The notes beneath the pieces were generated by a model, which saw only the letters and a program-made list of their open reading frames with translations, was not told where the DNA came from and ran no database searches. The position numbers and the translations under genes were made by a program. Of a DNA stretch of 34,945 nucleotides, positions 26,112 through 34,945 are shown piece after piece. Source of the stretch: Hyphomicrobiales bacterium (GTDB lineage: Bacteria > Pseudomonadota > Alphaproteobacteria > Rhizobiales > Rhizobiaceae); contig JAJFHT010000089.1 in the NCBI GenBank assembly GCA_021775495.1, positions 1-34,945 of the forward strand, in the 5' to 3' direction. Every line of letters begins with the position of its first letter. The stretch's first letter is position 1.

Positions 26112-26666
26112 ATGAAATCGGAGATTGAATTGATGGCGGCGAATGTGAATGACCCCTCCGACCCGGTCGGCCCGGTTGTCTCGGCAGCTCATCTGGCGGA
26201 CGGTGCAGTCCCTGCATTGTCAGAACTGGAATTTGCCCTGACTGTCGCCGGTAATGCTTTCCAGCGCTGGATGGTTCACTGCATGACGGCGGCGGGCGTG
26301 CCCGGGCTGACATCCATAGAGGTGCAATTGCTGCATGCGGTCAACCACCGTGACCGGGACAAGACGCAGTCCGACCTGTGCATGATGTTCAACATAGAAG
26401 ACACGCATATCGTGACCTACGCGCTGAAGAAGCTGCAGGCTCAGGATCTGATATCGACGGGACGCCGGGGCAAGGAAAAAACGGTCATCATCACAGTGCA
26501 GGGGCGGGACGCGTGCTCCCGATATCGCGAAATTCGGGAGAAGCTGCTGGCCTCCAGCCTCAAGGCGCTGAATGTCGATCAGTCCGCAATGCGTTCTGTA
26601 GCATCATTGCTGCAGGTTCTCTCCGGCCAATATGATCAGGCGGCCAGGAGCGCCGCCAGCCTTTGA
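26112..26666 (+). CDS. MarR-type winged-helix transcriptional regulator (COG5631-like)
   Basis: This 184-residue protein contains a winged helix-turn-helix of MarR type from about residue 65 to 140: LTSIEVQLLHAVNHRDRDKTQSDLCMMFNIEDTHIVTYALKKLQAQDLI, then the wing GRRGKEKTVIITVQGRDA. It resembles COG5631 regulators, which accompany hydantoinase or oxoprolinase genes (from memory). The ATG at 26112 lacks a strong ribosome binding site; an ATG at 26133 with GGAG ten bases upstream is an alternative. It diverges from the 5-oxoprolinase gene and precedes an aldo/keto reductase by 66 bases. The effector may be 5-oxoproline or a related lactam (inference). Confidence 0.8.
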   Translation: MKSEIELMAANVNDPSDPVGPVVSAAHLADGAVPALSELEFALTVAGNAFQRWMVHCMTAAGVPGLTSIEVQLLHAVNHRDRDKTQSDLCMMFNIEDTHIVTYALKKLQAQDLISTGRRGKEKTVIITVQGRDACSRYREIREKLLASSLKALNVDQSAMRSVASLLQVLSGQYDQAARSAASL

Positions 26667-26732: not shown

Positions 26733-27716
26733 ATGGAATATGTCAGACTGGGAAAGACCGGACTGAAAGTATCGCGCCTTTGCCTCGGGTGCATGAGTTT
26801 TGGCAAACCGGGCTGGAGCGTGCATCCTTGGGTGCTCGACCGGGACCAGTCGATGCCGTTTTTCAAACGGGCGCAGGAGTCCGGGATCAATTTTCTCGAC
26901 ACGGCCGATTTTTATTCTCAAGGCGTCAGTGAGGAAATCACCGGCGAGGCGGTGCGCACATATTTTCGCCGTGACGAAACCGTTGTCGCCACCAAGCTCG
27001 GGTTGCCGATGGGCGAGGGCCCGAATCTTGCCGGCCTGTCGCGCAAGCACATTGTCGAGGCGGTCGATGCGTCCCTGAAGCGCCTCGGGCTTGATCATAT
27101 CGATCTGCTCTACATTCACCGGCTCGATCCAAATACCGAGATGGAGGAAATCGTGATGGGGCTGGATCACGTCGTCAGGCAGGGCAAGGTCACCTATCTC
27201 GGCGCGTCCTCGATGTGGACATGGCAGTTTGCCAAAATGCGGGCGCTGCAAAAGCAGAACGGGCTGGCTGAATTCGTTGCAATGCAGAACTTCTACAATC
27301 TTGCCTATCGCGAGGAAGAACGCGAGATGAACCCGTACTGCGCTTCGGAAGGGGTGGGACTGGTTCCCTGGTCACCGATCGCCCGCGGCTTTCTGGCAGG
27401 CAATCGGCCAAAGGACGGCAAAGCCACCGAGCGCGCCAAAACCGACAAGATGGCACTGGGTTATTTCGGATCCCGGCAGGACTACGCCATTCTTGAAAAG
27501 GTCAAACGCGCCGCCACGAAGTTTGGTGTTTCATCTGCTCAGATCGCCTATGCATGGGTTTTGTCAAAACCATCGGTCACCGCTCCCATCGTTGGGACAA
27601 CCAAGATCGAACAGCTCAACGAGGCAATCGCGGCGCTTGACGTCGATCTGGACGCGCGCACGATCAAATCGCTTGAGGCACCCTACAGCGCAAGGGATGT
27701 GATGGGGCACGAATAG
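26733..27716 (+). CDS. Aldo/keto reductase
   Basis: This 327-residue TIM-barrel NAD(P)H oxidoreductase has the catalytic tetrad Asp56, Tyr61 (DTADFYSQG), Lys88 (ATKLG) and His129 (LYIHRLD). The cofactor-binding motifs PWSPIARGFLAG and the C-terminal PIVGTTKIEQLNEAI are present. The N-terminus YVRLGKTGLKVSRLCLGCMSFG places it with YajO/Tas-type and YhdN-like reductases. It follows the MarR-type gene on the same strand, possibly as a second gene of that unit. The physiological carbonyl substrate is not evident. Confidence 0.92.
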   Translation: MEYVRLGKTGLKVSRLCLGCMSFGKPGWSVHPWVLDRDQSMPFFKRAQESGINFLDTADFYSQGVSEEITGEAVRTYFRRDETVVATKLGLPMGEGPNLAGLSRKHIVEAVDASLKRLGLDHIDLLYIHRLDPNTEMEEIVMGLDHVVRQGKVTYLGASSMWTWQFAKMRALQKQNGLAEFVAMQNFYNLAYREEEREMNPYCASEGVGLVPWSPIARGFLAGNRPKDGKATERAKTDKMALGYFGSRQDYAILEKVKRAATKFGVSSAQIAYAWVLSKPSVTAPIVGTTKIEQLNEAIAALDVDLDARTIKSLEAPYSARDVMGHE

Positions 27717-28232
27717 TATATCGGTTGTGGTCTAAATCTATCGATTGACCACAACGGATACTCCAGGACGCTGTCTCGTAGACAGCTAGCCACCGTTTGA
27801 TAGCTGTGAGCGTAACGAGAGCAAGTTTGGATCCGGCAAATCAGCCGCCATTCGGCGTCGTTGAGGGAGTGTCGCCCATTCCTGGTTCCTTCTTGGAGCT
27901 TGGATCACACCTGAATGTCCACTTTGTCTCTAGAAATAGTGCACCGACTTCTGCAGTCGGGGCGACCGCGGGACTTCACAGCATGGCCCTTCGTCAACAA
28001 ATGCTTTGACGATACAGGGTTACGGGCGGATTTCGAATAAAACGCAGCGAATATATCCTAGTCGACCTCCGAGAAAGGGAGTGCCGAAGGCAATCCCCAC
28101 ATCGTCGACGTTGACAGGTGCTGTTCAAACAACTCTGATGTTTCGAAAATCAATAAATCTACGTGTGGGCGTCCTTTGGAAAATGAGAGTTCTCAGCGTC
28201 AGGAACGCGATCTGGAAAATTGGTCTGCACCG
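27717..28232. other. 516-bp intergenic region with three hairpins
   Basis: Directly after the aldo/keto reductase, TCGGTTGTGGTC (27721-27732) pairs with GACCACAACGGA (27747-27758), giving twelve positions with one mismatch. Next, CTGTCT (27771-27776) pairs with AGACAG (27780-27785), and CCGACT (27944-27949) with AGTCGG (27955-27960). None is followed by a T-run, so the first may be a weak terminator or an RNA structure. A 70-codon frame at 27797-28009 has no ribosome binding site and is not convincing. The rest should contain the promoter of the LuxR-type gene. Confidence 0.5.
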
Positions 28233-29987
28233 ATGACTGAAACATCCACGACTGAGTCTTCAATCGACGATGTTCTGGGTGTGATTTACGATGTTGCATT
28301 GGACCCCATGCGCTATGAAGAACTGTGCGTATCCTGGGAGGCTGTGCTTTGGCCGCAGATACAGCAGGGCGCCAATACAAGTTTGGAATCAAGAGTTGTT
28401 TCCCATTTCACGCGGGCTGAAGATGTCCTTGATCTGATCGAATCGCACCCGAGCGATGCCGGTTTACCCGAAATTGCAGGGTTCCTGGAGGGCGTCGGAT
28501 CAGCCGCAGCACTGGTCATTGATCACGATCTGCTGGTTGCTGCGATCAATTCCGCAGGTGTCAGGTTGTTGTCGGCCGAGGTCGGATCCAAAGTGTCTAA
28601 CCTGCCCATCCTTGAAGACGACGTTGGCTCGTTCTTGAAACATGTTCAAGGGATGCTCAAACGGTCAGACGGGGCCGATTCAATCATCCGTGTAAGACGT
28701 CAAAAAAGTGAGCACTTGATCGTGTTTCACCTGCGCGCGTTGCGCACCCAATCCGGGCAACGCTGTGTCGCTGCGATAACGTCAGATCTGCACTGGCCGC
28801 AATCTTTTCAAGCAACGCTAAGGAATGCTTTTTCGCTGTCCAAAGCCGAAAGCGACATTGTTCGCATGATCGTGGATTGCAATAGCGTCAATGGCATTGC
28901 GACCCAGCGCGGACGTTCTATCGGTACAGTCCGCAACCAAATAAAGAGCATCCTCGCCAAAACGGGTTCCCGCAGTCAGATCGAACTTGTGCGCCTTGTC
29001 ATGTCAGTGATGGAGGTGGCAACCAACAATGATGAGCCGCATCCGGGCGAAACGCGAACCATGATTGCTTCAGGTAGCGGTCTGCCACCGGCGCAACAGT
29101 GTTTTGTTACCGGTGCGGATGGGCGCAAGCTCGAATATTTGATCCTGGGCGATCGGGAAGGCGCGCCGGTCTACTATTTGCAAACCGAGTTGGGGCTGTC
29201 CCGGCTGCCCGCGTTCATTGAAGAAGACGCCTGTCGCCGTGGGATCCGGGTTATTTCTCCGATCCGGGCCGGGTTTGGCCAATCCGATCCTGTGCCAAAA
29301 GGCGGCAATTTCGGCGAGCAGGTTGCCCGGGACCTCTTGACGATAATGGACGAGGAAGGAATTTCCGCGCTGCCGGTCATCACTATGGCGGCTGACAATG
29401 CCTTTCCCGCCCGCATGCATATTCTCCGCCCGGGTTCCGTATCCGCCATTATCGCGACAAGCGGTTGTTTTCCCATCATCAATGATGAGCAAGCCGCCAG
29501 GCAACAACGGATGCATAGGCTGATGCATTCGACGGCCCGCTATTTCCCCAAGCTGCTTCCATTTGTGGCCAAAGCCAGTTTCAAAGCCGTTCGAAAGATG
29601 GGGAAGAAGTGGATGGTCGAAAGGCTGTTTGCCAATTCTCCTGCTGATCTTGCCGTTTTTGAGAATCCTGACGTGCAGGCCGCTGTTCTTGAGGGAAGTA
29701 ACGTGGCTCTGTCCGACACTCATAGCTCACACGAGGCTTTTATCCTGCAGTGCTTATCATACCACGGTTCCGATCAGCTTTCGTTGCTTCCAAGTGTTGA
29801 AAACCAAGTCCCACTTCATTCACTCAATGGTCTCAAAGACCCGGCGATGCATGCCGACACACTGGCTGAAAACCAGCGCCGGTACCCCTGGATCCAATTT
29901 CATATTTATCCCGATGCCGGTCAGTGGCTCTTGTTCCAATACCCTGATGATGTTTTCGACCTGGCTGAACGATATGTCGCTCGCTGA
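28233..29987 (+). CDS. LuxR-type regulator fused to a degenerate alpha/beta-hydrolase domain
   Basis: The 584-residue protein has an N-terminal PAS-like region (about 85-185), a LuxR/GerE helix-turn-helix at about 199-262 (LSKAESDIVRMIVDCNSVN, GTVRNQIKSILAKTGSRSQIELV), and a C-terminal alpha/beta-hydrolase fold from about 290 to the end. In the hydrolase part the nucleophile elbow reads TMAADNA (384-390) instead of GxSxG, and the final catalytic histidine position reads PDAGQW (Gln564), while an acidic residue (GLKDP) is kept. It therefore looks like a pseudo-enzyme that could bind a small ligand. The start is uncertain; ATG 28233 is the first in-frame ATG (the frame is open from a TTG at 28176). 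It converges on the phosphorelay operon, 36 bases away. Confidence 0.82.
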   Translation: MTETSTTESSIDDVLGVIYDVALDPMRYEELCVSWEAVLWPQIQQGANTSLESRVVSHFTRAEDVLDLIESHPSDAGLPEIAGFLEGVGSAAALVIDHDLLVAAINSAGVRLLSAEVGSKVSNLPILEDDVGSFLKHVQGMLKRSDGADSIIRVRRQKSEHLIVFHLRALRTQSGQRCVAAITSDLHWPQSFQATLRNAFSLSKAESDIVRMIVDCNSVNGIATQRGRSIGTVRNQIKSILAKTGSRSQIELVRLVMSVMEVATNNDEPHPGETRTMIASGSGLPPAQQCFVTGADGRKLEYLILGDREGAPVYYLQTELGLSRLPAFIEEDACRRGIRVISPIRAGFGQSDPVPKGGNFGEQVARDLLTIMDEEGISALPVITMAADNAFPARMHILRPGSVSAIIATSGCFPIINDEQAARQQRMHRLMHSTARYFPKLLPFVAKASFKAVRKMGKKWMVERLFANSPADLAVFENPDVQAAVLEGSNVALSDTHSSHEAFILQCLSYHGSDQLSLLPSVENQVPLHSLNGLKDPAMHADTLAENQRRYPWIQFHIYPDAGQWLLFQYPDDVFDLAERYVAR

Positions 29988-30023: not shown

Positions 30024-31535
30024 CTATGAGCGCGCAAAATCACGCTTGATCGTAATTGGCTGGTCTGACGTTTTGGACTCCACCAGATACATGCCAATCA
30101 GTACAAGAATGATGGCAACCCATGCTAGGGCGGTCAATGTTTCGCCAAGCAACAACATGCCCCAAACAATGCCGGACAAGGCCTGAACATACGCAGTTTG
30201 ACTGGCAAAAACTGGACCTGAAAATTTTAGGAGGTACAGGAAGCTGACGTTCGCTGCGATTGAAATCACCGTCAACGCCAAAACAATCGGACCCAGTGGG
30301 GACAATATCTCTGACAGAGGAATAAAGCTGCCGGTGACCGCGGCTAACGGTACGGCGAATGCTGCAGAGAAAACAAACATCAGACCGATGCTGGTCAGTG
30401 GATCGATATGTTGAGGCCGCTTGCTCGACAGCGCCAATGTTTCGATTGCATACAAGATCGGAGCGACGAGTGCTGCGAAGAGCCAGAAATTCTGATCCGA
30501 AATTCCGTGCTCGAATCTTTGATAGAGCGCCACCCCTATCCCTGTAAGACCAGCCATCAATCCCAGGATGCGACGGACCGATGCGTTTTCCATTCCGGTA
30601 CCCGCGGCAAAAATGAAAACCACAAGGCTCTCCAATGCCAGCATCAACGTCAAAAACGTCGCTTCGACATGTTCGGCCAAAATGAAGATTGTTAGATGTT
30701 GTACTATGCCGACGAGAAATGCCCAGGCAACAAAAAAGCCTATGTCGCCGCGCGACAGCCGAGGAAAACTTCGGCTTACCAGAACAAACAACAGAAAAAT
30801 GGCAGCAGCGATGACATCGACCAGGGCAGCCAGCCCAAGAGGATTGGAACCCCAACTGAATGCCATTCGCGACAATGCCGGCATTACTCCAATCAGTGTA
30901 CCGTTGATCAACAGAATCAAGCCGGCCTGCAGTGTTTGGATCCTCCGAAGCAGTTTGATTTCGCGCGCATGAATCTCGCGAGCCATGCCCAGGATTACCG
31001 ATGCGAGCCGGCCGATTGGGTCGCCAATGGTGGCCTCTTCTCGCAGGTTCAAACTGTTGTCATCGAACCGTCCGGCTTCGATGATTTCAGCGGCGTTGGT
31101 GAGCACTGCAACACGCCTGAAATATGTCAACTCCTGGTCGCGAAATTTCTTTTTTCGAAGGCATGCGCCGAGCCTTGCATTCAGGATTGCCGGGTCAAAT
31201 TTCTTGGGCAGGAAATCCTCCGCACCCAACTCAATCGCACGTGTAACGGCATCGGTGTCATCTTCCAGATCCGAGATGACGATTACCGGCAGATCGCGTA
31301 GAGCGGGCTCCGACTTGAGTTGATTGAGTACCTGGAAGCCATCCATTTCAGGCATCAGGAGATCCAGCAAAACCGTATCGAAATCTCCTTCGCGCGCGGC
31401 TTTCAGGCCATGTGCGCCGTCAATTGCAACCTCGGCGTCATGGCCAAGGTTTTCGACAGCCATGCGCAGTTTCTTTCTATTGATCAAATTGTCATCGACG
31501 ATCAGGATGCGTGCTTTGCGATCCTCAAACATCAT
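30024..31535 (-). CDS. Receiver-HAMP-EamA fusion: response-regulator-linked DMT transporter
   Basis: This 503-residue protein joins a CheY-like receiver to a permease. Residues 9-127 are a receiver with acidic pocket Asp14/Asp15, phospho-acceptor Asp58 (VLLDLLMPEMDG), Ser88 and Lys111. Residues about 139-193 resemble a HAMP domain (LTNAAEIIEAG, then GDPIGRLASVILGMAREI). From 203 on there are ten hydrophobic helices forming two EamA repeats, the second ending in the typical SGPVFASQTAYVQALSGIVWGMLLLGE. The frame is open from 31583, but ATGs at 31535/31532 start just before the first receiver strand and overlap the HPt stop by 8-11 bases, indicating translational coupling. Phosphorylation from the neighbouring kinase/HPt probably controls transport; the substrate is unknown. 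Confidence 0.85.
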   Translation of the reverse strand: MMFEDRKARILIVDDNLINRKKLRMAVENLGHDAEVAIDGAHGLKAAREGDFDTVLLDLLMPEMDGFQVLNQLKSEPALRDLPVIVISDLEDDTDAVTRAIELGAEDFLPKKFDPAILNARLGACLRKKKFRDQELTYFRRVAVLTNAAEIIEAGRFDDNSLNLREEATIGDPIGRLASVILGMAREIHAREIKLLRRIQTLQAGLILLINGTLIGVMPALSRMAFSWGSNPLGLAALVDVIAAAIFLLFVLVSRSFPRLSRGDIGFFVAWAFLVGIVQHLTIFILAEHVEATFLTLMLALESLVVFIFAAGTGMENASVRRILGLMAGLTGIGVALYQRFEHGISDQNFWLFAALVAPILYAIETLALSSKRPQHIDPLTSIGLMFVFSAAFAVPLAAVTGSFIPLSEILSPLGPIVLALTVISIAANVSFLYLLKFSGPVFASQTAYVQALSGIVWGMLLLGETLTALAWVAIILVLIGMYLVESKTSDQPITIKRDFARS

Positions 31536-31884
31536 TGGGATCCAGTTTTGAAAGCGTTTCATGAACGGCAATGGCTTCTTCATGAATAGCGTTCAATTGG
31601 TCGCCCAATCCGGTTGGGGCACCCACCTTGCATTGCAGTTCCAGTTCCGCGCAAAGATCACCCAACCGAAGTGCGCCAAGATCCCTGGAGTTGGATTTGC
31701 AACTGTGGGAGGTTATGCGCAGGGCTATCCAGTCACAAGCAATCGACTGTGCTTCCATACGTTCAACCTGCCTAGGCAAAGTTGAAACAAAATCATGGAT
31801 CAGTTCGGTCAGATCTTCAGTATCACCTCCAATTACAGCCTTGAGCTGACGGATTGTCGCCACATCTATGATGGCTCGTGCCAT
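31525..31884 (-). CDS. Stand-alone histidine phosphotransfer (HPt) protein
   Basis: This 119-residue helical protein carries the HPt motif SHSCKSNSRDLGALRLGDLCAELE, in which His60 is followed by the conserved lysine and, at the expected distance, LGA-x-x-L. HPt proteins shuttle phosphate between a hybrid kinase receiver and a final receiver. GGAGAGG five bases before the ATG at 31884 sets the start and removes a poorly conserved N-terminal stretch. The start lies inside the end of the kinase gene (19-base overlap) and its stop lies inside the start of the transporter fusion, so all three are one operon. Confidence 0.87.
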   Translation of the reverse strand: MARAIIDVATIRQLKAVIGGDTEDLTELIHDFVSTLPRQVERMEAQSIACDWIALRITSHSCKSNSRDLGALRLGDLCAELELQCKVGAPTGLGDQLNAIHEEAIAVHETLSKLDPNDV

Positions 31885-34800
31885 GATGCCTCTCCGATTA
31901 CAGTGGTTGTGCGCGATGCTCGCTTGATTTTTTGGTGACGCTGCGCGCGGTTCAGGCATTCGAGCAGATGTTCGATTACGATCGGCTTGCTGAGATAGTC
32001 ATCCATGCCGGCGCGCAAATAGCTTTCCCGGTCAGACACCATCGCGTTCGCAGTCAGGGCGACAATGTAGGGTTGTTGCGGTTCGGGGAGTTGCCGACGC
32101 AGCGCGGCCGTGGCTGCCAGGCCATCCATGCCTGGCATTTCGATATCCATGAAAACCGTATCAAATGCCTGTTCCAGACATCTTGAAATCGCCGTTTCGC
32201 CGCTGCTGACGACGACCGGATCGATTCCCAGTCGCTTGAGGATTTTGGATCCGATTTTCCGGTTGATTGCATTGTCGTCCACCAGCAACACATCCATCTC
32301 GGCATTGAATATGCCCCAATCCGGTACCGGCAGTTCTCGATTGTCTTGAGAAAGATCGACCTCTGGTCGCATCGCTTTGGCCAAAGTCGTCAGCATCTGC
32401 AACGTCTTGGCGGGCTTCATCAATTGCCCGGCAAACCGCGCCGCATCAAAGCGTGCCCGCATCTGGCTGTCGAGCAACGAAATCGAACTGTAAAGTATCA
32501 TCGGCGGCGCATCAGCTCCGAGCATTTCACGCACGCCGAAAGCCAGATCCAAACCGGTTTTGCCCGGCATTTTGTAATCCATAACAATGGCATCGAATTC
32601 GAAACCATCTCGCAGCAACTGCAAGGCCTTTTCCGGATCGCTGGCCAATTCGGGTTGTATGTCCCAGCCCAACAGCCGTTCGCCCGCGATTGTCAGATTG
32701 GTCGGGTTGTCGTCAACAACGAGTATGCGACGGTCTTTCACAAGAGCCAGCATGTCCGACACGTTTCTGGTCACCGGAATCTCTGTTTCGACAAACGGTA
32801 AAAGAACGGAAAAAGTGGTTCCGACATCCGGCGTGCTTTCAACAGTGATTTTGCCACCCATCAATTCAAGCAGCCGCTGCGTGATCACCAGCCCCAACCC
32901 TGTTCCGCCAAACCGGCGGGACGTTGACGCATCAACCTGACTGAACGATTTGAACAACCGGTCCATTCGATCGGCAGGAATACCGATTCCGGTGTCGCGG
33001 ACGTTGATCAGGAGCTTCGGCTCATCATTGGTCGGTTTCACCACATCCACGGAAAGAACAACCTCTCCTTCGTCAGTGAATTTGATGGCGTTGTTCAGAA
33101 GGTTCAGCAGAATCTGTTTCAGCCGAATGCTGTCGCCGAGAATGGCACGAGGCACGCTATGCGATACACCACAGGCGAATTCGATTCCCTTTTCGCTGGC
33201 CTTGGACGCCAAAAGCTCGGCAGCGCTTTCAATAGTTTCGGTCAGATCGATTGGCACCCGCTCAAGATCCATGGCGCCAGCTTCAACCTTGGAAAAATCC
33301 AGAATGTCGTTGATGATTGTAAGGAGCGTTTCTGCCGCCTGATTGATCGTTGTGGCAAAATCGCGCTGCTCGTAGTCCAGTTGCGTACCGCTGAGCAAAG
33401 CCGACATCCCCATGATGCCATTCAATGGTGTGCGGATTTCATGGCTCATGGAAGCAAGGAATGTGCTTTTGGCCTCATTGGCAGCCTCGGCCTCGTCCTT
33501 TGCCTGGCCGAGCTCTTGGGAGATCCGCTTGACTTCAGTAATGTCGGACAGGACGACAACCGTGCCGACCTGATCGGCACGACGAACCGTCACTTGGGCC
33601 CATTGATCGGTATCGAATTGTTCATTGAACGTATCGGCGCCTGATCGAACCCGCTTAACATGATCGCGAGACCAGGCTGCCGGATCGTCCATGGCCGATG
33701 CAAAACGCCCGGAATTCGCCGCCGATTTGACAATCTGCTTGAGTGGCAAACCTTCTGGTGCGGCAGAAGAAGAATCCCCCAGCATGATTTCGAGATAGCG
33801 CGTGTTGCAGATAAGCAGCTTGTTGTCCTCGTCAAACAACGCAAATCCTTGCGACAAACTGCCAATGGCTTCTTGCAGGCGCTGGCGAGCGGTTTGGATT
33901 TCAACGAGATTTGACTTTTGCACCTCAACAGCTGTGTCGCGGAAGACCAATAGAGCTCTGGCCATGTGACCGATTTCGTCGTTGTTTCCGGGATCCGGCA
34001 ATTCTTGATCGAGATTGCCGGCCGCGATCGACAGCATGCTGCGAGACAAATCCAGGAGCCGTCCGATCAGGTTGCGACTGACATAGAGCCAACCAATCAG
34101 GACCGAGCACAGCAGGCTCGTGACCACCATGGCCTGCAACACTGTGGTATTGACCTGCTTGACCGCTCCAGCGTCGGTTTTGGCTATGTCGATTTTTAAC
34201 CTCGCTGCCTCAACCAGCGTACCGACGGACGCAATGAGATCATTTGCCAACCGTGCATTATATTCCAGACTGAGCCTGCTACTCTCGATGAGTTCCAACT
34301 CAGCCCTTCGCAAATCCGCCAGGTTATGTTTGCCTTCTCCGGCAGATTTCAGGGTCGAAACCTGTCGCAAAAGTCGGGCTCTAGAGCGATCTGGTGCTGT
34401 GTCTGCAGCTACTGCGACGTCATCAACTGCGCGGGCGACACCGAATGCCAGTATTCCCACTTCTTCGATGCTGCCAGCTTCGGTTAGCGATTGCAGCTCA
34501 ACCGTCAAGTTGCCCAATTTGGTGAGCAGTTCCAGCTGCGGAAGCAGGTCGATGATGTCTTTCGCCAATTGAGCTTCGGGTTCGGAAAACCGCTCCTTCT
34601 CCGCCGCTCCACCGGCGGTCCATTCTGCCAGATGTCCGCCGAGCACCCGTTCAGCCGGTTGGGCCAACCGGATCGAGACTTCGGCGGCCTTTAACATTCG
34701 TGCGCTCAGTTCCTCGCGATCGCGGGTCGCTTCCAAACGCTTCTTGACGACGCCGTCCAGGCGAAGAAGGCTTGAATAAAACGCCTCAACCAAGGTGCGG

Positions 34801-34945
34801 GGTTCTTGAGCATCGACGTCCAGGATTCGTTGGCGCAACGCCTCGGCATCGCGCAACACGACCGATGAAGTAAGGATGCGCTCTTCTTCATTGTTTACGA
34901 TCAACAGTGCCGGCGCGGCGCGCAATATTCGTTGGGATTGCAGCG
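31866..34945 (-). CDS. Hybrid sensor histidine kinase (HAMP-PAS-HisKA-HATPase-REC-REC), N-terminus beyond window
   Basis: The frame is open to the window end, so the first membrane segment and part of the sensor are missing; about 1025 residues are visible. Numbering here is from the TTG at 34925. In order they show a long helical, probably periplasmic sensor (1-260), a membrane helix (about 266-284), HAMP (285-335), a PAS_7-like domain (345-465), HisKA with His495 in [12 protein letters not shown], HATPase_c (N box NNAIKF, DTGIGIP, GGTGLGL), and two receivers. Phospho-acceptor aspartates are Asp783 (IVMDYKMPG) and Asp927 (VFMDIEMPG), with conserved lysines LMKPA and LSKPI. The layout recalls TorS/BarA-type kinases, except that the HPt domain is a separate protein encoded next. 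The signal is unknown. Confidence 0.92.

Follow-up and report, generated by a model that had tools for sequence, protein, structure and literature searches.

A LuxR-type regulator with a C-terminal alpha/beta-hydrolase domain lacking the catalytic nucleophile and histidine, a possible ligand-binding module

What might a hydrolase domain without its catalytic residues do on a DNA-binding protein? The question is raised by one gene in the window, the 34,945-nucleotide stretch of a Hyphomicrobiales bacterium contig (JAJFHT010000089.1) analysed here. The whole gene (28233..29987, plus strand) is an open reading frame of 584 codons for a PAS-LuxR-alpha/beta-hydrolase (ABH) regulator of 584 aa. An in-frame TTG at 28176 is a possible earlier start that would add 19 residues, and the alignment of the best homologues begins at about residue 8–14 of the 584-aa frame. 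Based on two predicted models and structure searches, the protein consists of N-terminal helices (residues 1–85, 28233..28487, placed by model and conservation) that include His58, which is kept across the family, a PAS-fold domain (about residues 86–188, 28488..28796), a LuxR/GerE helix-turn-helix (about residues 189–265, 28797..29027) and an ABH domain without catalytic nucleophile or histidine (residues 287–584, 29091..29984), all on the plus strand. PAS-LuxR one-component regulators carry the helix-turn-helix at the C-terminal end, whereas here it lies in the middle of the protein because the ABH domain stands behind a complete PAS-LuxR protein. A reading made earlier from the sequence alone (the sequence-only reading) had described this mid-protein position correctly.

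The front half was examined with a fragment model of residues 2–268 (mean pLDDT 91.2), which showed a helical lead, a PAS domain and a LuxR/GerE helix-turn-helix. Using VIA-align, PAS structures were matched at Z 10.6–12.3 over model residues ~74–185, in agreement with PAS matches from Foldseek, and the helix-turn-helix was matched by the DNA-binding domains of VraR/LiaR at Z ~11. Pfam GerE was found in the window protein at E 4.8e-4 and 20.1 bits, under the 23.5 cut-off, and in 18 of 21 aligned family members at E 0.01. The N-terminal autoinducer-binding domain of acyl-homoserine-lactone LuxR proteins was absent from the Pfam matches of the window protein (E up to 1) and from the 11 Pfam families matched by the 21 members (E 0.01); the N-terminal fold is PAS. 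VqmA, a quorum receptor, and EL222, a light regulator, sense via PAS-type domains, and in VqmA the ligand DPO sits in the PAS domain. In Foldseek, the N-terminal part matched chains of these two proteins best, and DPO is named as the VqmA ligand in PDB titles. The window protein resembles such regulators in its order of PAS and then GerE helix-turn-helix, but superposition across both domains gave an rmsd of at least 8 Å, with good agreement only domain by domain, and an ABH stretch of some 300 residues comes after the helix-turn-helix. The likeness favours a reading that we consider possible and distinctly below even, in which PAS is the sole sensor and the dead ABH domain serves as a dimerisation or partner-protein-binding module; further evidence on it is weighed below.

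The C-terminal part has the fold of a catalytic alpha/beta-hydrolase. Pfam gave Abhydrolase_6 at E 0.22 in the window protein; at E 0.01, Abhydrolase_1 was found in 20 of the 21 aligned family members and the window protein itself had only its GerE match. In the predicted model (mean pLDDT 83.9), residues 288–582 aligned to 9wlv, an alpha/beta-fold hydrolase of Microlunatus sagamiharensis, at Z 27.8 and 2.5 Å over 283 residues. The next best match had Z 22.4, and matches at that level and below were mainly dehalogenases, epoxide hydrolases and esterases. Like 9wlv and similar stand-alone hydrolases, the C-terminal domain is a whole ABH fold, but 9wlv has no DNA-binding part and carries Ser and His where the window has Ala and Gln. 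In a profile alignment, the elbow Ser (GWSGG) and the His (EGH) of 9wlv fall at the elbow and the AGQ motif of the family, and the missing residues claimed by the sequence-only reading were confirmed. Specifically, the elbow reads TMAADNA at residues 384–390, and its dead core T384-M-A386-A-D388 (29382..29396, plus strand) stands in place of the canonical G-x-S-x-G, with Ala386 at the nucleophile position and no Ser, Cys or Asp there. The AGQ at 562–564 puts Gln564 (29922..29924, plus strand) at the position of the catalytic His. The acid position is kept as Asp536 (29838..29840, plus strand) in an NGLKDP motif. The claim that fold motifs and an acidic residue remain held for the ABH fold and for Asp536, but not for the HG oxyanion motif, which is replaced by YLQTELGL, or for the elbow glycines, both of which are gone, the final one being Asp388. 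By its sequence, the ABH domain of the window protein would be catalytically dead.

The family was surveyed with a protein query and a profile query, with the window's own genome counted in every genome tally. The protein query (E 1e-5) had matches in 49/201 genomes, many of them to the helix-turn-helix only, and places without a locus were included only where the family-wide profile search also had them. The profile query (E 1e-40) had matches in 56/394 genomes of the taxonomic family, 13/385 of the class and 39/398 of the phylum, with at most three candidates scored per genome. Of 167 hits, three without a helix-turn-helix, six that were too short and 27 repeats were removed, which left 131 distinct two-domain fusions for the alignment; this set omits L084–L138. 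G645 from the family search and G121 from the phylum search, each without one domain, were left out. A separate 99-row alignment was not used for frequencies because its rows were partly picked by HGMLDG/GHMAG-type patterns. One alignment slip affects the counts, as L042 was scored Gly at the nucleophile site and is Gln by eye. A scan of genome contigs with the single protein as query gave no match. Two further family members are present in the window's genome, L002 (GHMAG, AGQ) and L003 (AHQGG), the latter with its end, including the His site, cut off by the contig end.

The nucleophile site varied widely over the 131 rows, with 14 residue types (Ser 37, Ala 16, Gly 15, Met 13, Leu 11, Gln 10, Asp 9, others 20) and the His site was most often Gln (Gln 62, His 32, Asn 9, others 28). 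The acid site was Asp in 112/131 rows. A possible nucleophile (Ser, Cys or Asp) plus His was found in 22/131 fusions, and a full Ser-Asp-His, read off the rows, in 14/131, all of them outside the window's clade. On the 131-row tree, the label intact or dead changes at least 12 times, and therefore loss, or regain, occurred many times. In a genome family of the same phylum and another class, with small genomes (f231), the fusion is frequent (L204, L213, L219, L220 and others), and several of its fusions carry Ser-Asp-His. A further seven fusions (L018, L043, L046–L048, L174, L203) have Asp at the nucleophile site with His kept, such as AHDIG/AGH; these recall the Asp-nucleophile dehalogenases or epoxide hydrolases and are possibly active enzyme-regulators. 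Fusion genes were also seen in pairs close by (L041/L052 in G322; G846:C44:263831-268375; L092), with elbow letters that differ per copy, which suggests candidate paired receptors.

The window's clade comprises 17 rows, window included, set apart from the rest by a branch with SH-aLRT 99 in a quick tree of the 131 rows. None of the 17 has His at the His site (15 Gln, one Glu, one Leu), none keeps the HG motif, Ser386 is present in only five, and Asp536 aligns with Asp in all 17. Asp388 is found in 17/17 clade rows vs. 0/114 outside. Judged by these alignments, the shared catalytic loss is a trait of the clade and not chance. The loss of the His described by the sequence-only reading is thus shared by the clade relatives, and the intact-looking members that could have spoken against it occur in the wider family and not in the clade. 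In an ABH-only tree (102 rows, IQ-TREE), eight clade genes grouped with the plasmid gene L138 of Aliiroseovarius sp. M344 with a support of 100/100; L138, 37% identical, was the window's sister.

Some features of the clade might point to an enzyme-regulator whose ABH domain still catalyses a reaction, with catalytic residues that are atypical or have moved. Examples would be Asp388, present in every clade row, and His500, present in 14/17 (12 rows with SAH, the window with SSH and L192 with NAH). The Ser386 of five clade rows and the nucleophile plus His of 22 members of the wider family could be read in the same way. We consider such residual catalysis unlikely, as the window lacks nucleophile, His, HG motif and both elbow glycines, and His500 is missing from L154, L159 and L199.

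Our preferred reading, which we hold to be somewhat better than even, is that the protein is a cytoplasmic one-component regulator in which an ABH domain without catalysis now acts as a ligand-binding or allosteric module. The front part would be an ordinary PAS-LuxR protein of VqmA/EL222 layout, and the ABH domain of the clade would have lost catalysis by exchange of His564 for Gln and of the elbow Gly388 for Asp and by loss of the HG motif, with Ser left at the nucleophile site in only 5/17 rows. A small ligand, probably ester-, lactone- or acyl-like, would bind in what was once the active-site pocket, now remodelled with Asp388 and Gln564, and its binding would rearrange the helix-turn-helix dimer and hence alter transcription. 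PAS may provide a second sensor. Ligand sensing would be the likeliest job of the ABH domain. Column 388 is strongly conserved in the clade (rank 10), but column 564 shows no more than moderate conservation (rank 49 of 295 ABH columns), which counts against the rebuilt pocket as a sensor. If a dead pocket does bind a ligand, a bacterial receptor class would be hidden under two misleading annotations, as a regulator or as a hydrolase.

Whether the ABH domain is maintained was investigated with close pairs of relatives without His. ABH dN/dS was 0.05–0.25 in 13/13 such pairs, and that of the N-terminal part was 0.05–0.40 in the same pairs; ABH exceeded the helix-turn-helix in 11/13. Two of the 13 pairs were from the window's clade, with ABH values of 0.135 and 0.193. 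The pairs are partly non-independent, as four share Parvibaculum-like rows, and ABH dS was at least 1 in 5/13, with some dS near saturation. Purifying selection on the His-less ABH domain of the relatives means that the domain still does something. Such selection is compatible with any structural role, and a dimerisation or partner-binding module would also accommodate a nucleophile position as variable as the one observed. Against such a module, the acid (112/131), Asp388 (17/17 in the clade) and Gln at the His site (62/131) are kept, and an interface would not obviously need those former active-site residues.

For the window copy's own dN/dS, no relative near enough was found. Compared with seven relatives, the window copy keeps 47 of the 68 ABH residues invariant in them (21 lost) and 19 of 26 such helix-turn-helix residues. 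Mean ABH identity to the relatives was 35.7% vs. 49.4% among them, and helix-turn-helix identity was 44.7% vs. 57.0%. In the ABH-only tree, the window branch was 1.2 vs. 0.47 in its sister L138. The window copy may be under looser constraint than its relatives. The long branch, the lost invariant residues and the low ABH identity are what one would expect if the ABH domain of this genome were a decaying remnant and the regulator worked via PAS and helix-turn-helix only. We consider decay improbable, since the frame is open, the predicted fold is confident and close pairs elsewhere are under constraint; the helix-turn-helix is also faster-changing, which suggests a raised rate of evolution for the entire protein.

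A possible origin is indicated by three stand-alone ABH proteins (L029, L035, L053) with a GVSGGG elbow and GH. The fused protein L045, in which GerE was found, groups with them and is similar in outline (GISGG, WGH). This fits a scenario in which an enzyme was joined to a regulator and lost its catalytic residues afterwards. Because the root of the tree is not fixed and several long branches meet, the tree does not establish one fusion with later losses in preference to several. If a dead pocket binds a ligand, Ser-Asp-His, Gln and intermediate members in one alignable set of 131 would make a path from enzyme to receptor testable on present-day proteins.

ABH proteins are used for signalling elsewhere, including D14/DAD2, KAI2 and RsbQ. 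The triad of RsbQ is intact, and the window protein differs from this group in lacking two of the three residues of the Ser-His-Asp triad. Excerpts of PMC3531792 describe the gibberellin receptor GID1 as thought to be hydrolase-derived by loss of the catalytic His, with a retained Ser that contacts the hormone, and the strigolactone receptor DAD2 as having a whole triad, with a Ser mutant that fails in partner binding and complementation. The proposed analogy to plant hydrolase-derived receptors therefore stood in part: GID1, by its published description and not by sequence comparison, lost the same His, but GID1 keeps its Ser whereas the window has Ala386 and only five of the 17 clade rows have Ser. 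GID1 is moreover a plant protein that signals via DELLA and SCF. The strigolactone-like comparison fared poorly because DAD2, in the same excerpts, depends on an intact triad, and GID1 would be the sounder plant parallel. A wider reading, which we offer only tentatively, is that PAS-LuxR-ABH proteins correspond in bacteria, as DNA-binding receptors, to GID1 in plants. In this single fusion family, hydrolases would have lost catalysis in several lineages and turned into transcription-factor receptors, and with intact-looking, half-dead and fully dead members still in existence, each stage on the way from enzyme to receptor could be traced. PAS-LuxR one-component regulators are a known type, here extended by a C-terminal pseudo-hydrolase. 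In the literature searched, with subscription papers outside its scope, no LuxR-ABH fusion was described by title or abstract, and no word beginning with "hydrolase" occurred in PMC3466318. Plasmid records in PLSDB label such genes either "LuxR C-terminal-related transcriptional regulator" or "alpha/beta (fold) hydrolase".

Gene neighbourhoods were compared with all ORFs, which recovered the regulator in 61/63 loci; keeping only the longest of overlapping ORFs hides real genes in GC-rich loci, including the regulator of L140, and then reveals shared neighbours in the Leisingera group alone. The window and its clade relatives L141 and L142 have eight ORF families in common (synteny), and one ORF family, perhaps an antisense frame, is common to L139, L143 and L144. 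Beyond the synteny of the window, L141 and L142, the all-ORF comparison found no gene running through the whole clade, which counts against the preferred pocket-sensor reading.

In the wider family, the all-ORF comparison does show neighbours in common, namely IalB-like genes. These were found in the flanks of 10/54 loci of the GHMAG subfamily, a sister subfamily, and Pfam IalB (PF06776) was confirmed in 6/6 genes tested. The IalB-like gene lies at most ~400 bases from the regulator in L095, L097, L099, L102, L114, L119 and L122 and further away in L098, L118 and L120, with two IalB-type genes each in L102 and L114. The background of 108 matches in 31 genomes, ~1 per megabase (calculated by hand), predicts ~1 in 100 such stretches by chance; this level is rough, as the 31 genomes are the window's relatives, not the hosts of the loci, and the loci are mutually related. 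The association is far above that rough level. An IalB-type gene is a possible regulatory target in the GHMAG sister subfamily; this lead does not extend to the regulator of the window. No IalB gene was found in the window or in its seven clade contexts, and the three IalB places in the window's genome are all on other contigs.

Upstream of the regulator gene, a 14-base inverted repeat (27719–27732/27747–27760) lies just behind an aldo/keto reductase gene, with shorter dyads and one weak promoter-like match on the opposite strand. A MarR-like winged-helix regulator (26112–26663, plus strand) is located beside the aldo/keto reductase (26733–27716), just upstream of the regulator gene. On the other side, 30024–31583 (minus strand) encodes a 519-aa protein in which a receiver domain (residues 26–137) is fused to an EamA-type transporter. 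This gene adjoins a hybrid histidine kinase (31866–34925, minus strand), and its product is possibly a transporter controlled by phosphorylation.
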